Shown here: piece by piece, positions 6,775 through 28,895 of the stretch | How positions within the stretch are numbered: position 1 is the stretch's first letter | How the letters are laid out: the number at the start of each line of letters is the position of its first letter | Origin: a virus | Strand: one strand, 5' to 3' | Virus record (IMG/VR): IMGVR_UViG_3300028920_000061 | Location: 1 to 64,000 of that record | Length of the DNA: 64,000 nucleotides | Program-made: the position numbers and the translations under genes | The notes under the pieces: model-generated | What the model was told of the DNA's origin: nothing | Databases searched by the model: none | The model's input: only the letters and a program-made list of their open reading frames with translations

Positions 6775-6866
6775 GCAGGGGTGGTCCAGTTGGCCGGTCC
6801 TTAGATCTATGCTGATATGAGCAATCTAAAGCATGGTGTACGATGGTTCAAGTCCATCCCCCTGCA
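6775..6866 (+). tRNA. tRNA-like gene with normal acceptor and T arms and an unusual anticodon region
   Basis: GCAGGGG at 6775-6781 pairs perfectly with CCCCTGC at 6859-6865. The T arm is canonical: GATGG, loop TTCAAGT, CCATC at 6842-6858. A D-arm-like segment (GTCC, AGTTGG) follows TG at 6782-6783. At 92 nt it has the length of a class II tRNA. I cannot place a normal 7-nt anticodon loop: the central part instead folds as one long hairpin (TTAGA with TCTAA, inner TGCT with AGCA). CCA is not encoded. It is either a degenerate or atypical tRNA or a tRNA mimic. It lies just before the next gene, which makes it part of that leader. Confidence 0.5.
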
Positions 6867-19245: not shown

Positions 19246-20370
19246 GTGCAAATACGATTTTCTCGTGGTACTGGTGTCACTATTGACACTGTTCCGACTC
19301 AACTTCTTACATGGGCACAGCGATGGTGGGTTGCGGATGATGGCGATTTCTGTCTTCGGTCAGCAATGCCTACAGAGCCTATCAGTAAAACTTTGACAGA
19401 AAATGGGTTCAACAATTTCTATTATGATGATATCACTAATGTGGTAGCCATCGGTCAAAACATCACTGAAGAACATGTCAATACAGCAAGAGCGGTTGCT
19501 GAGGGCGGTGAAGCCGCGCCGGCTACCCCAAGACCCGTCGCTGCTTTAGAAACTGATATGGGTGAAGTTGAGCCCCTCCAAAGAGAAGAGGAGCCAGTAG
19601 AAGGCGTTGATTACGAAATTGAACCGGAAGAAGAAGATGACCCCGATGGTGAGGATGAAGACGATCTCGAACGTCCATTCACTCCACATCTTGATCCGGT
19701 TGTTGACATCAATAACGATGAAATTCTCAAACGCCTTCCACCAATGCTTCGTATGGAAGAAGCAAGCGCAATCAAACTGTATTGTGACAAGCTTCGTGAA
19801 TACGAACGTGTCTGGAGTCAGGCGATCACAATGAAGAGAATAATTAACGAGATGATGACCAAAATCGATGAAAACGTCCTTCTGAAAACGGTACGTGACG
19901 ATATCTCGTATCTTCAGGAAAAATGCGATGATGTTGAATCAGTACGGTTTGGAACCGGTGTCAGAGAGTATAATCTGGTTATCACAACCAAAGAAATCAT
20001 TACAGACGACCAGGAAAAGTACGGTCGGCGCAGGCTTGGTGCAATGAGGATCACAATTGATTTGAGATACCTGTATGCTCAAACACCTCCTGGATCGAAC
20101 TATACCAAAGCGATTGAAATACAAAATCTCGACCGGCACCCAAGATTTGGTGGTACTTATTGGGATTGTGGCCATGTGCATCATGAAGATGAAGGTTCTA
20201 CAATGAGCGCCTGCTTCGGTGGATATTACCAACACATATTCGAAGCGTTCGTATCACGGAACCTTCCGATGCTGTTCGATACAATCATACGTTTTATCAA
20301 GCGTCCATACGAAATGGATGAATGGGGTTGTAAGGTACGCCTCTTTCCGGAGGTAACCAGTGAATCCTGA
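19246..20370 (+). CDS. Second E2-like protein of the conjugation operon
   Basis: 374 aa from a GTG start behind GGAGGT. N-terminal beta-rich part (~1-80), acidic linker (~105-150), a helical section (~160-240), then a C-terminal domain with RRRLGAMRITIDLRYLY, NLDRHPRFGG, GHVHHEDEG and SACFGG (Cys323). The strand order and the H...G...CFG signature again resemble a divergent UBC fold, with Cys323 as candidate active site. Two E2-like proteins in a row could mean one active and one structural partner. This domain call is less certain than for the neighbouring JAMM and E1-like genes. Confidence 0.5.
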   Translation: MQIRFSRGTGVTIDTVPTQLLTWAQRWWVADDGDFCLRSAMPTEPISKTLTENGFNNFYYDDITNVVAIGQNITEEHVNTARAVAEGGEAAPATPRPVAALETDMGEVEPLQREEEPVEGVDYEIEPEEEDDPDGEDEDDLERPFTPHLDPVVDINNDEILKRLPPMLRMEEASAIKLYCDKLREYERVWSQAITMKRIINEMMTKIDENVLLKTVRDDISYLQEKCDDVESVRFGTGVREYNLVITTKEIITDDQEKYGRRRLGAMRITIDLRYLYAQTPPGSNYTKAIEIQNLDRHPRFGGTYWDCGHVHHEDEGSTMSACFGGYYQHIFEAFVSRNLPMLFDTIIRFIKRPYEMDEWGCKVRLFPEVTSES

Positions 20371-21337
20371 TTCAAGAAAATGCTCATGGTCGTTTCTTTC
20401 CGAAAGGACGGAAACGGCCCCTAATATTCAATTTACACCAAAGGCCTTGAAATGGATCAAGGCGATGGTTGAAGAACATAGTGAAGAAGTTGGCTTTCTT
20501 GGTATTGTTAGAGAGGTTGATTCTTCATATGTCATTGATGAAATATTCTATCCGAAACATTGCCTTGCTACTTCATCAACATGTGAAATAGCGCCCGAAG
20601 GTGAAGTAGAATTGGCGCAATATCTGATTGATAATAACAGGGTAGAAGATGTTGCTCGAGTCAGATTTTGGGGTCATTCTCATCATACGATGGGAACAAC
20701 GCCGTCTGGCCAGGATGACGATCAGGCATTACAAAAAATGAATAATAACGGTGCGTATTTCGTTCGCGCCATATGCAACAAAAAAGGCGAAATGTCAGTT
20801 TCATTCTTTGATCATGAACGACAACTCAAATTTGAGAATGTCAAATGGTCGATATGTGAAAACTACGACGAAATTCTCGCCAATGTTATTTGCGCCACAA
20901 ATATGGAATCAAATAGTAAGGGGAAAGTTCAAGCCATACGTGCTGCTATCTCTGCACAAATTGATTACAAAGATGACGAATACAAAAAGATTACCGAAAA
21001 AGTGAAAGAGCTCAAAAAGAAAAATCTCCCGGCATCCGAAACAAGGGGGTTGGCTCGGCAACCATACCAGAGAGGGGTTATACATAGCCCCGGACATTAT
21101 CCAAACGACATCCTTCCCGGGTTCCAGCAAGATATGTTCGATGATGATTGGCCCCCGTATGGTCCTGAATTCTATCGGAACAACGCTGGGCAGATGCCTT
21201 ATCAACGCCGGCAAAGTAATTTTCCAAAAGTGAATGGTGCAAGAAAAAACAAAAGAAAAAAAAATCGAAACGGGGCTCTTTTGTCCGATAAGGAAATAGA
21301 TTCGGTTGTTTCAGAGGCATGGGAGGGTGGATTATGA
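20360..21337 (+). CDS. JAMM/JAB (MPN) metalloprotease, deubiquitinase-like
   Basis: 325 aa from a GTG behind GGAGGT, overlapping the previous stop. The JAMM zinc motif is intact: H106-S-H108-x7-S116-x2-D119 (GHSHHTMGTTPSGQDD), with a preceding glutamate in SEEVGFLG. This is the catalytic set of JAB isopeptidases that cleave ubiquitin-like proteins from targets or trim their C-termini. The rest (~200-325) is charged, Pro-rich and Lys-rich and may bind substrate. Its neighbour is the E1-like gene, with which it overlaps by 4 nt. Expected to mature the beta-grasp protein or remove it from targets. Confidence 0.85.
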   Translation: MNPDSRKCSWSFLSERTETAPNIQFTPKALKWIKAMVEEHSEEVGFLGIVREVDSSYVIDEIFYPKHCLATSSTCEIAPEGEVELAQYLIDNNRVEDVARVRFWGHSHHTMGTTPSGQDDDQALQKMNNNGAYFVRAICNKKGEMSVSFFDHERQLKFENVKWSICENYDEILANVICATNMESNSKGKVQAIRAAISAQIDYKDDEYKKITEKVKELKKKNLPASETRGLARQPYQRGVIHSPGHYPNDILPGFQQDMFDDDWPPYGPEFYRNNAGQMPYQRRQSNFPKVNGARKNKRKKNRNGALLSDKEIDSVVSEAWEGGL

Positions 21338-22092
21338 TCGACTATCTCAGGCAGCTTGATCTGCTAGACCCGAAACAGATCGGCAATCGTTCTGTCAGCC
21401 TGATTGGGGCAGGAGCTACGGGTTCGCACATTGCATGGTATCTCGCTCAGCTCGGGTGGGGTGCTTCAAATCAAGGTCAAGGCATTCTCAAGGTATTTGA
21501 TGACGACACAATTGAAGGTCACAATCTGGCTAACCAGATATACTGGCCGGAGCATGTCGGCAAGCTGAAAGTCGAAGCTCTCAAAGATATGATAATCAAG
21601 AAGTTTGGGTTTGAAATAGAAACCCATCCTGAAAAGGTTACTGACCAGAGAAACGACGTTGCAGCAAAATATGTATTTCTTCTTACGGACACCATGAGCA
21701 GCCGTGAAGAAATATTTGAGAAATGTCTTCATTTCCAATTCGCAACAGACTTGGTGATTGAAACCCGGATGGGTTTGCGAGACGGTCGGGTCTACGCATT
21801 CAATCCGAACGATCCTAACCATATTGAGGAATGGAAAAAAACGCTCTATAAGGATGAGGAGGCGTCTGCGTCACTCTGTGGTGCAAGCGCATCCATTATA
21901 TCCACTGTAACTTTCCTGTCATCGCTTGCGGTCTGCCGGCTTGTGCAGCATTTCAATTGCAACTATGGGAGCGACACTCTCCGTGAGGAGGGTAAACCAA
22001 TGAGGATGTGGAACGAAGTCCACTTCTCCCTGTACCCCGAAGCAATGATGTTGCGCCAATTCGGTGAGGCTAAAGAGCCAATAATTTTCTGA
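21334..22092 (+). CDS. ThiF/E1-like adenylating enzyme
   Basis: 252 aa from the ATG behind GGGAGGG; an ATG 15 nt upstream is less well placed. Rossmann ATP-binding loop LIGAGATGSH near residues 24-32, then KVFDDDTIEGHNLANQIY and a GKLKVEAL segment, the conserved adenylation signature of ThiF/MoeB/E1 proteins. Cys182 in ASLCGAS is a candidate thioester cysteine; zinc-binding CxxC pairs of MoeB are absent. It should adenylate the C-terminal glycine of the beta-grasp protein at 22109 and pass it to an E2-like partner. The family is clear; the partner is inferred from the operon. Confidence 0.88.
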   Translation: MIDYLRQLDLLDPKQIGNRSVSLIGAGATGSHIAWYLAQLGWGASNQGQGILKVFDDDTIEGHNLANQIYWPEHVGKLKVEALKDMIIKKFGFEIETHPEKVTDQRNDVAAKYVFLLTDTMSSREEIFEKCLHFQFATDLVIETRMGLRDGRVYAFNPNDPNHIEEWKKTLYKDEEASASLCGASASIISTVTFLSSLAVCRLVQHFNCNYGSDTLREEGKPMRMWNEVHFSLYPEAMMLRQFGEAKEPIIF

Positions 22093-22108
22093 CGGAAGGT
22101 TTTATCAG

Positions 22109-22576
22109 ATGGTTATCGTTCAGCTCGTTAAGGTCGGATCTGAGGTCCGTTCTTTCGACATTTCAGACAATCCCACTCTCGGCAACCTGCTTCGCATAGC
22201 TGATGAGTCTTTCACTCCCAATACCATTACTATCAATGCCCAGAACGTTGTCAGTGAAAACACCACCCTCCGTGATGGAGACCGTGTTTTTATTGGTAAC
22301 AAGGTCAAGGGAAATACTCCCTATATTGTTGAGTTTATCCGACTCGGGCAGGCTGAGGTCGTTCGCATATCCACTGAGGGTAGTGCAACCATTGGTGACT
22401 GCATCAATATGATGAGTGACACCAATCGGAACTATTTTATTGGTGGTGATGGAAACGATGTTTTTCAATACCAAATAAGCGGCGTTACCAAACAGTCCAG
22501 TGATATTGTTCCTTTGCCATCCCAGGAGGGCGGAACAGTTCGTGTTATCTGCGCGACGAAGGTAAAAGGCAATTAA
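22109..22576 (+). CDS. Tandem ubiquitin-like (beta-grasp) protein
   Basis: 155 aa. Two repeats of about 70-85 residues, each opening with a beta strand (MVIVQLVKVGSEV and PYIVEFIRLGQAEV) and ending in KVKGN (residues ~65-69 and at the C-terminus). The first matches the ubiquitin/ThiS-like order: strand, strand, NPTLGNLLRIAD helix, then LRDGDRVFI. The chain ends in Gly-Asn, not Gly-Gly, so one-residue removal by the adjacent JAMM protease would expose glycine at the repeat ends. It lies 16 nt after the E1-like gene in the same operon. Best candidate for the modifier of this system; the fold is inferred from pattern, not structure. Confidence 0.65.
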   Translation: MVIVQLVKVGSEVRSFDISDNPTLGNLLRIADESFTPNTITINAQNVVSENTTLRDGDRVFIGNKVKGNTPYIVEFIRLGQAEVVRISTEGSATIGDCINMMSDTNRNYFIGGDGNDVFQYQISGVTKQSSDIVPLPSQEGGTVRVICATKVKGN

Positions 22577-22868: not shown

Positions 22869-23690
22869 ATGAAACGCCTTTTTATTATTCTTATGCTTGC
22901 TGCTACTGCATTTTCTTATGATTCAACATGGGCTCATGCCAAATTTGAATTATCCGCCGCAGTACCAGAATGGTTTTTTCGTCAACATGATACGCTGGTA
23001 ACATGGAATTACCCTGTTCATGAGTTTGATTCAGTATGGTACGTCAAAAAACATGTTAACAGCATATCATCATGTTTTGTATCAGATACTTATACACAAA
23101 TTACCATTAATATTTGTGATAGTATGGAATTTTCTCAGCGACTTTTTGATGAATCAATTAGTTATGATGAAGATGATTACGGTTTTCATTACAGATCAAT
23201 GGTCAAGTTATACTTTTTAAGAACCGATTTTCAAATGGATAAAGTTTGGTATTGGTTCAGAACAGTTCGTAAACCTCTCGAAAGTTCTCGAACAGATACT
23301 ATCCCATGGTATAATTATGGATGGAGTTGGGACAATAATATCTATGTTCAAGGATTGCGAATTGTTAATAACGACGACGATACGTTGTTATATAGAGTTC
23401 CAATAGGATGTAGAATTTGTGACCACCTTCTTGTCAAAGGCTTTGTAATGAATATTGATAGCGTTGGCGATCTCGTTTTTGTATATAATCGGTATAATGA
23501 TTTTCAAAAATTTGACGGCTGGGAAAATCGTCTTACCATTTTACCAAAAAGGGAAGATATAGTTTCCACCAGCATGCCACAGACGCTTGCACCGTATCGT
23601 TTTCAAAATATTTTTCATGAATTTGACGCTTTAGGTAGATTAGTTAGAGAAAAGCGTCAATGGCAAATCGTTTTTAAAAAGGCGCATTGA
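22869..23690 (+). CDS. Secreted or periplasmic protein
   Basis: 273 aa behind AAAGGAGAAG, with its own promoter. The N-terminus KRLFIILMLAATAFS is a good signal peptide (about residues 1-17). The mature part is rich in Trp, Tyr and Asp (WYVKKHV, WYWFRTVRK, YNYGWSWDNN), with beta-strand periodicity, like a secreted binding or surface protein. No catalytic motif. It may act in the periplasm or host envelope, for example as a superinfection-exclusion factor, but that is only inferred from the signal peptide and the dedicated promoter and terminator. Confidence 0.7.
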   Translation: MKRLFIILMLAATAFSYDSTWAHAKFELSAAVPEWFFRQHDTLVTWNYPVHEFDSVWYVKKHVNSISSCFVSDTYTQITINICDSMEFSQRLFDESISYDEDDYGFHYRSMVKLYFLRTDFQMDKVWYWFRTVRKPLESSRTDTIPWYNYGWSWDNNIYVQGLRIVNNDDDTLLYRVPIGCRICDHLLVKGFVMNIDSVGDLVFVYNRYNDFQKFDGWENRLTILPKREDIVSTSMPQTLAPYRFQNIFHEFDALGRLVREKRQWQIVFKKAH

Positions 23691-23704
23691 TATGCGCCTT
23701 TTTT
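23679..23704 (+). terminator. Rho-independent terminator
   Basis: AAGGCGCAT and ATGCGCCTT form a perfect stem with a TGAT loop that contains the gene's stop codon, then a run of T. Confidence 0.8.
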
Positions 23705-23754
23705 AGTTATTTGTCAATAGATTGTGGTATAGAAATTATGAAAGGAGATTAGCT

Positions 23755-24030
23755 ATGCCAACAGCGTATATTATTTGTGATAACGATTCGGCACTTCATG
23801 TTGTTATGGGTAATGACAAGGATAAGGCCGCCGACGATCATTATGCTGAACAAGTCAAGAAGAAAATAGCTGACCACGAACGGGAGCAATGCAAGAAGCA
23901 TTATGGCAATAGTGGTTGGGAAGAGGTATTCAAACGACATTTTTTTCATATTAACAGGGTTACTGCAGAGGAAGCGCCTAATGAACAAGACTCTCATCAT
24001 CAACATAAGCATGAGAATACGATTGGATGA
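23755..24030 (+). CDS. Hypothetical small protein with His-rich tail
   Basis: 91 aa from the ATG behind GAAAGGAG. N-terminal beta strand (TAYIICDNDSALHVVMG) and helix with charges (KKKIADHEREQCKK). The C-terminal tail is His-rich (DSHHQHKHEN), a possible metal-binding segment. Overlaps the next small gene by 50 nt. Function unknown. Confidence 0.55.
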   Translation: MPTAYIICDNDSALHVVMGNDKDKAADDHYAEQVKKKIADHEREQCKKHYGNSGWEEVFKRHFFHINRVTAEEAPNEQDSHHQHKHENTIG

Positions 24031-24145
24031 AGATGTGCAAATCCATGAAGTACTCCAAAACGCCGCCATCAGCTTTCAAGATACTACTGGGAAAGCAGAT
24101 ATCGACGAAGCACATATTTTAGATTATTCAGAAGTAGAACACTAG
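23981..24145 (+). CDS. Hypothetical 54-aa protein
   Basis: Starts MNKTLIINISMRIRLDED. The in-frame extension to 23903 lies inside the previous gene and lacks a ribosome site. Pattern suggests one beta-hairpin and a helix. It stops just before the tmRNA. No family recognised. Confidence 0.5.
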   Translation: MNKTLIINISMRIRLDEDVQIHEVLQNAAISFQDTTGKADIDEAHILDYSEVEH

Positions 24146-24161
24146 AGTGTATTCAAACTAT

Positions 24162-24565
24162 GGGCCCGCACTTGGGTTTCGATGTGGGTACTGAATCATA
24201 TGTAGCATGCCGAGGACGACGGTTGGCCTCGTTAATCATCCGTCAAAACAACAACTGCCAAAAACGACGGTTGTGCAATGGGCGCTGAGTTCGCAATCCA
24301 GTTCGCTGAGATTTGCAACCTGGCGACCGCACCAGCGCTGGTCTAAAGACCGGCAAACATCACTGATTGACGCCGATATGGCAGTGGTGTAAAACATCGG
24401 CTGGACGGAGAGAGGGTCGAACTCTCTGTTGAGATAAGACTAGAGTTCCAGTATAGCTGCCGTGTTCAGTAGACGGAACTGACAATAGAAATGGACCGGA
24501 TAAGCATGTAGAAGCGTGTGTGGATGTATTTACAGACATCGGTTCGATTCCGATCGGGTCCACCA
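24162..24565 (+). ncRNA. ssrA: tmRNA (transfer-messenger RNA)
   Basis: A 404-nt RNA with the tmRNA plan. Acceptor stem: GGGCCCG (24162-24168) pairs with CGGGTCC (24555-24561), then discriminator A and encoded CCA. A T arm (ATCGG, TTCGATT, CCGAT) precedes the 3' acceptor strand. The D-like TTTCGATG near the 5' end is present. GCATGCCGAGG and GGTTGGCCTCG match the 5' conserved part, and AAGCATGTAG matches the 3' conserved part, of bacterial tmRNAs. The best tag frame begins GCC at 24257 (AKND...) and runs 29 codons to TAA at 24344, ending APALV. That is long; most tags are ~10-15 residues. Rescue of stalled ribosomes during infection is the likely role. tmRNA identity is strong; resume codon inferred. 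Confidence 0.9.
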
Positions 24566-24569
24566 ACTC

Positions 24570-24598
24570 AAAGGCTGTCTTCGGACAGCCTTTTTTTT
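24570..24598 (+). terminator. Rho-independent terminator after tmRNA
   Basis: AAAGGCTGTC and GACAGCCTTT with a TTCG tetraloop, followed by a T-run. It ends the tmRNA transcript. Confidence 0.9.
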
Positions 24599-27719: not shown

Positions 27720-28895
27720 ATGAGAATCAAAGCAATAATTGGAAGTGGCATGGGTGATGAAGGTAAGGGTCGCATGACCGAATACTTTTCCGACAGCAAA
27801 TCAATTGTTGTACGATTCAACGGAGGGGCACAAGCTGGTCATACTGTCGTACTTTCTGACTGGGCGCGTCATGTATTTCATCATTTTGGAAGTGGGAGCC
27901 TGCATGGTGCTCAAACATATCTGAGCAAATTTTTTATTGCCAATCCGATGTTCTTCTGTCGAGAGCGTAGAGAACTTCTGGCGAATTTTCAATGTAATCC
28001 TGATGTTTATATCAGTCCGTTTTGTTTTGTTACGACACCATGGGATATGATCATTAATGATCTAACAAATCAGAAAAACCAACATGGTACCTGTGGATTT
28101 GGCATTAACGAGACTGTTGAACGATGTCAGAAGATGACATTAAATGTCAGTACGCTTCAGGCGGACTACTTTGACGACCTTCTCATGCACATCGTCAATG
28201 ACTGGGTTCCGGTAAGAATTGAAGAGCTTGGGCTTGAGCCCGACGCAACATACCGCAAATGGCTTTCAAGCGAGAAGATGATAGACAATTTCAAAGATGA
28301 TGTCAAATCATTTCTCAATTGGGTAACGATAGGAGACCCAAACTTTGACTTTGCCGAACAAGTCATTTTTGAAGGCGCTCAGGGACTCATGCTCGATCAG
28401 AATCATGAAAATTTCCCATATGTTACCAGGTCGAATACGGGAACCGGAAATGTCCGCGAACTGATTGAGGATTTTCATCTTCACGATGAACTGGAAGTGA
28501 CATACGTTACCCGGTCATATGCGACCAGGCATGGGGCCGGACCTTTACTTCATGAGGATAAGACTCTCCAATATGGCGACCCAACAAACGTTCCAAACAG
28601 GTTTCAGGGAAGTCTACGATATGGCCTTCTCGATATAAATCAAATTGTTCATGAAATCAATCAAGATATGGTAAATCTAAACGGCCTGGAGTACAATCCA
28701 AGTATTGCAGTCACCTGCCTGGACCAAAATCCCGGATATTGTATCTGGGATGGTAAGGAAGAGCGCTTGTCACACAGTGAGCTATGCAAGCACGCTCTTG
28801 CGGACAATCTCCAGTTTAGCAAGGCGTATGGGTCCATTGGCCCCAGAACAACTGATCACATGAAAGTGTGGGAAAGGAAAGGGGTGCCAGTATAA
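27720..28895 (+). CDS. purA: Adenylosuccinate synthetase
   Basis: 391 aa, slightly shorter than the usual ~430. GMGDEGKG carries D13, and NGGAQAGH carries H41, exactly the catalytic pair of E. coli PurA. EGAQGLMLD, NTGTGN and TRHGAG fit further PurA motifs. The enzyme ligates aspartate to IMP in AMP synthesis. Phage PurZ enzymes that make 2-aminoadenine are PurA relatives in which D13 is replaced, whereas here D13 is kept, so an ordinary purine role is more likely. Start behind GAAAGGAAG. The next gene starts by 1-nt overlap. Confidence 0.88.
   Translation: MRIKAIIGSGMGDEGKGRMTEYFSDSKSIVVRFNGGAQAGHTVVLSDWARHVFHHFGSGSLHGAQTYLSKFFIANPMFFCRERRELLANFQCNPDVYISPFCFVTTPWDMIINDLTNQKNQHGTCGFGINETVERCQKMTLNVSTLQADYFDDLLMHIVNDWVPVRIEELGLEPDATYRKWLSSEKMIDNFKDDVKSFLNWVTIGDPNFDFAEQVIFEGAQGLMLDQNHENFPYVTRSNTGTGNVRELIEDFHLHDELEVTYVTRSYATRHGAGPLLHEDKTLQYGDPTNVPNRFQGSLRYGLLDINQIVHEINQDMVNLNGLEYNPSIAVTCLDQNPGYCIWDGKEERLSHSELCKHALADNLQFSKAYGSIGPRTTDHMKVWERKGVPV

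Follow-up and report, generated by a model that had tools for sequence, protein, structure and literature searches.

A complete phage-encoded tmRNA gene with a 29-residue tag ending in -ALV

tmRNA rescues ribosomes that have become stuck and puts a tag on their incomplete proteins, and the tags of bacterial tmRNAs are short and uniform. Overall, the most frequent tag length is 10 amino acids (PMC11915505). tmRNA is present in 402 of 18,146 phage genomes (PMC9004378), so the word 'rare', used for phage tmRNAs in a first-pass annotation of the DNA described here, was overstated. A 2014 list holds ten phages with ssrA, Bxz1 relatives among them (PMC4131195), and in the mycobacteriophage Wildcat the tmRNA is the most highly expressed lytic gene (PMC7474061). 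The named phages that come closest to the present case are mycobacteriophage Momo (Bxz1 species, KR080196), with the 25-residue tag ATDTDATVTDAEIEAFFAEEAAALV, and Gordonia phage GodonK (MK620899), with the 25-residue tag AEADVVVSDSDIAEIEAYANEAALV; both tags end in -ALV. The GodonK tmRNA, from a phage of an actinobacterial host, lies within a tRNA cluster in a record that has no tmRNA annotation. The gene is complete at positions 204-732 (complement) of our locus L306 and scores 90 bits with the Rfam tmRNA model RF00023; ARAGORN misses it, and an annotated tRNA-His (283-344 of the same locus) lies within it.

The stretch analysed here, the window, comprises 64,000 nucleotides (positions 1 to 64,000) of the 81,022-bp IMG/VR phage contig IMGVR_UViG_3300028920_000061, from an uncultured virus of bacteria. 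ARAGORN called one tmRNA, and the RF00023 covariance model returned the same bounds, aligned over its full length (model positions 1-374) at 141 bits (E 3.4e-55; the gathering cut-off of the family is 47 bits). Chance origin of this RNA is excluded, and it is confirmed as a complete phage-encoded one-piece tmRNA, with the bounds and the hallmarks, encoded CCA included, that the first-pass annotation had given it. Its parts are as follows.

24162-24565, plus strand: tmRNA (ssrA) gene, one-piece, 404 nt, CCA encoded (ARAGORN; Rfam RF00023)
24162-24168, plus strand: 5' strand of the acceptor stem, GGGCCCG (read from sequence)
24211-24244, plus strand: pseudoknot 1, CGAGG/CCTCG and GACGG/CCGTC (sequence; RF00023 alignment; bacterial tmRNAs with the same pattern)
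24257-24259, plus strand: resume codon GCC, with A at -4 and -3 (covariance-model alignment)
24257-24346, plus strand: tag frame, 29 codons and TAA, encoding AKNDGCAMGAEFAIQFAEICNLATAPALV (ARAGORN; frame comparison)
24337-24354, plus strand: hairpin GCTGGTC-TAAA-GACCGGC, 7 bp with a four-base loop, holding the stop codon (24344-24346)
24538-24554, plus strand: T arm, ATCGG TTCGATT CCGAT, intact (covariance-model alignment; sequence)
24555-24565, plus strand: 3' strand of the acceptor stem, CGGGTCC, discriminator A and encoded CCA (24563-24565) (covariance-model alignment; read from sequence)

The RNA shares with the one-piece tmRNAs of RF00023 the G3.U70 pair, the CCA end, pseudoknot 1, the resume consensus and the looped stop. 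It differs from them in being phage-encoded, in the length of its tag (29 residues against the commonest 10) and in a C terminus of ALV rather than LAA or MAA. G3.U70 is the pair that marks tmRNA for alanine, and as read from the DNA it is present here as G 24164 facing U (T) 24559. The resume codon aligns with the family consensus AAUAAuUGCa at high posterior, the conserved A falling at -4. The UAA in the hairpin loop occupies the stop-codon place of the family model, with alignment posteriors that are low across this hairpin. The minimum free energy of the whole RNA was only mildly better than that of shuffles (z -1.6), as is expected when a pseudoknotted RNA is folded without pseudoknots.

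About one in three shuffles of an 87-nt stretch of this composition has an open frame by chance, so that openness alone is weak evidence for the tag. Three other things taken together, namely where the resume codon falls, the looped stop and the lack of an ALAA-like tag elsewhere, identify the 29-codon frame as the predicted tag. Frame -1 from the resume site reads CQKRRLCNGR and stops, and frame +1 runs for 44 codons to MAVV and a stop. Neither is ALAA-like, and a short ALAA-like tag in another frame is thus rejected. The frame first proposed, from GCC at 24257 over 29 codons to APALV, stands, as does the statement that it lacks the usual ALAA-like ending: the C terminus is neutral and hydrophobic and is not the canonical LAA. 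Helical amphipathicity of the tag showed no excess over shuffles.

The tag is roughly three times as long as is usual in bacteria, and the earlier description of it as unusually long holds against the commonest 10 residues; it is not singular, since long tags recur in phages. To compare lengths we picked tmRNAs by their pseudoknot-1 pattern. In these pattern-selected samples, which are not phylogenetically independent, 12 of 19 phage contigs (a further one, L086, was left out as it sits at a prophage end) carry tags of 17-46 residues by ARAGORN or a hand-placed resume codon, whereas 94 of 98 ARAGORN calls on bacterial contigs with a closely similar pattern give tags of 9-11. Phage tags in the sample examined here are often two to four times longer than bacterial ones. 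The bacterial exceptions include two Omnitrophota and a Chthoniobacter with tags of 18-26 residues, each the sole over-threshold tmRNA in its genome; long tags are therefore not exclusive to phages. What is new here is a further phage tmRNA with a long tag, of a kind that is already known and not unique. The wider pattern of long phage tags deserves a proper survey.

Among the other phage contigs, tags measure 28 (L172), 30 (L138), 32 (L159), 33 (L139), 35 (L130) and 46 (L136) residues, and most long phage tags finish in LAA, MAA or VAA. The 46-residue tag, ANTAVDAEVDASVESLLAQADYIINNADEFLTEGGALVAETEAAVA, is the longest in the comparison and occurs at L136 2823-3282, L133 99-558 and L134 8237-8696, genes that ARAGORN misses. 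L138, L139, L136, L159 and L172 resemble the window in the length of their tags (28-46 residues) but end in LAA, VAA, LA or VA, and their interiors are unlike that of the window tag. The RNA ends of L138 are the nearest to the window of all compared (77% at the 5' end, 71% at the 3' end). On a further contig (L144 5907-6534; IMG/VR 3300014819_000034) the phage tmRNA is split near the T-loop region by a group I intron (RF00028, 5931-6143), and its tag is of the same 33-residue type as that of L139, with one residue different.

Two pairs of phage tags could be compared codon by codon, in blocks that were chosen for peptide similarity and whose numbers are accordingly indicative. Between L136 and L141 (blocks LLAQADYIINNADEFL and LLAEATYIINNADEFL) 14 of 48 nucleotides differ, 10 of them at third positions; between L159 and L130, 12 of 19 differences fall at third positions. 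In both pairs the tag frame gives a far higher amino-acid identity than do shifted frames. This pattern suggests that the added peptide is under selection, the interior being apparently conserved as peptide in two other phage families. No close relative was found with which the window tag could be compared in this way, and no paper on the subject turned up in the literature searched.

The -ALV end links the window tag to those of Momo and GodonK, and beyond it the likeness fades. The score of the window and Momo tags was reached by 97 of 2000 shuffles in which the ALV end was kept, compared with 8 of 2000 for Momo and GodonK. From these shuffles, the Momo and GodonK tags appear to be related to each other, and the window tag appears to have only the ALV end convincingly in common with them. 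Moreover, the Momo tmRNA has a different pseudoknot 1 and diverges from the window tmRNA at the 5' end (61% across the first 106 nt), and its tag is strongly acidic (-7, against -2 in the window). A tblastn search of named phages with the window tag found no match. L314, a lead that came from scanning for the degenerate pattern AEIEA...AALV, was rejected as a protein gene.

Four further features set the gene in its surroundings.

23676-23703, plus strand: intrinsic terminator that ends the preceding gene and bounds the tmRNA transcription unit on its upstream side
23711-23739, plus strand: promoter-like site TTGTCA-17-AATTAT, weak, of a type found at chance frequency here
23903-24145, plus strand: 80-aa ORF with no assigned function (position only)
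24570-24593, plus strand: intrinsic terminator with a 10-bp stem, UUCG loop and T run, starting 4 nt past the CCA

Bounded by the two terminators, the tmRNA and the 80-aa ORF probably form a unit of their own, and from its position the ORF is probably co-transcribed with the tmRNA. The same record encodes a phage primase, exonuclease, helicase, baseplate wedge and sigma factor; the tmRNA gene sits among phage genes and, by this context, is no prophage att fragment. At the DNA level the 3-kb neighbourhood of the tmRNA had no match in named phages, whose closest primases are ~25% identical to that of this record. A search of IMG/VR for relatives by the kinase and helicase proteins confirmed none.

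The pseudoknot-1 pattern is found for the most part in Verrucomicrobiota, Lentisphaerota and Fibrobacterota. Together with the RNA ends it resembles tmRNAs of Fibrobacterota and Verrucomicrobiota, a likeness that does not settle the host; the exact resume-site pattern, sought in bacterial genomes, was not found. Primase matches reach 38% identity in Fibrobacterota. The best of them is a helicase-primase that shares only part of the protein, and no host is therefore assigned on this basis. No homologue of SmpB, SspB or ClpP was found in the 81-kb record, which is possibly incomplete; the same searches detected SmpB and ClpP in most control genomes and SspB in two. We therefore take SmpB, AlaRS and proteases to be supplied by the host, on whose proteases the tag would rely.

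Taken as a whole, we put the probability at roughly 0.85 that this is a functional phage one-piece tmRNA, performing trans-translation via host factors and marking products with a long -ALV tag. Ordinary trans-translation with host SmpB is the most likely mode of action. For transcription, charging, tagging, degradation and the role of the long segment in this phage, we infer the following course. Host AlaRS would charge the phage tmRNA with alanine through G3.U70, host SmpB would bind it, and during infection it would enter ribosomes that have stalled on mRNA that is broken or lacks a stop codon. Translation would resume at the GCC, add alanine and the 29-residue tag, and end at the looped UAA; such rescue would free ribosomes for phage protein synthesis. 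The neutral hydrophobic C terminus would mark the truncated product, most likely for host proteolysis, and -ALV may still be a degron. The extra ~19 residues would be an extension of the phage type; through it, recognition of the tag by the host protease or its adaptor may be tuned or re-routed.

The alternative that survives best accepts the rescue of ribosomes and differs over the fate of the product: the long -ALV tag would be no degron of the host ClpXP type, and tagged proteins would be spared or re-routed through the tag interior. A C terminus of ALV in place of LAA or MAA, the recurrence of that end in Momo (Bxz1-type) and GodonK, and the retention of interiors as peptides in other long phage tags all speak for it. 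However, the window tag starts A-K-N-D and has a neutral end of small and hydrophobic residues, as degron tags do; most long phage tags keep LAA, MAA or VAA ends; and the interior likeness to Momo falls short of significance when the ALV end is discounted. We consider this alternative rather unlikely. A broader proposal, which we hold only tentatively, is that phage tmRNAs form a functional class carrying an extra selected peptide of ~15-35 residues that binds a phage or host factor and re-routes rescued chains, the window tag being one lineage. The length of phage tags and the peptide-level conservation of their interior in two families turn the question of why phages carry tmRNA into a testable one, namely by what protease or partner the additional stretch is recognised.

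Far less probable is an RNA whose main role is to titrate SmpB or to obstruct trans-translation by the host. An RNA of mycobacteriophage DS6A that has only the tRNA-like domain (TLD) has been proposed to inhibit tmRNA (PMC4131195, PMC11915505), and the record has no detected SmpB, but the window RNA keeps a complete mRNA-like domain, pseudoknot 1, resume site and looped stop, all needless in a decoy. A gene newly acquired from a host, or what is left of a prophage att site, with no phage function is very improbable too, and the prophage remnant was rejected: temperate phages do integrate at ssrA and carry host fragments, and most matches in one search resemble prophage ends, with ANDENYALAA tags near contig ends, but this gene is complete, lies inside an array of phage genes at a distance of 24 kb from the end of the contig, has its own terminator, and has a tag unlike the 9-11-residue tags of nearly all bacterial relatives sampled.

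Several other loci in the window merit mention. A tRNA-like gene at 6775-6866, with a CTA anticodon and a long variable arm, is called Pyl by ARAGORN and has no match to the Rfam tRNA model at the gathering threshold; it is a possible amber suppressor tRNA. Amber recoding of the phage was rejected, as TAG ends 9 of 59 ORFs and reading TAG as Gln gives no higher coding coverage. At 19246-22576 a ThiF-family E1-like adenylyltransferase (21319-22092) lies between genes without family matches, in what is possibly a ubiquitin-like conjugation operon. The adenylosuccinate synthetase-like protein encoded at 27720-28895 (Pfam PF00709, E 5e-43) reaches neither the PurA nor the PurZ cut-off of NCBIfam and possibly belongs to a modified-purine pathway. 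Finally, one of the 51 window ORFs scanned has a match to RRM_1, the RNA recognition motif (E 8e-18), which is unusual in a phage.
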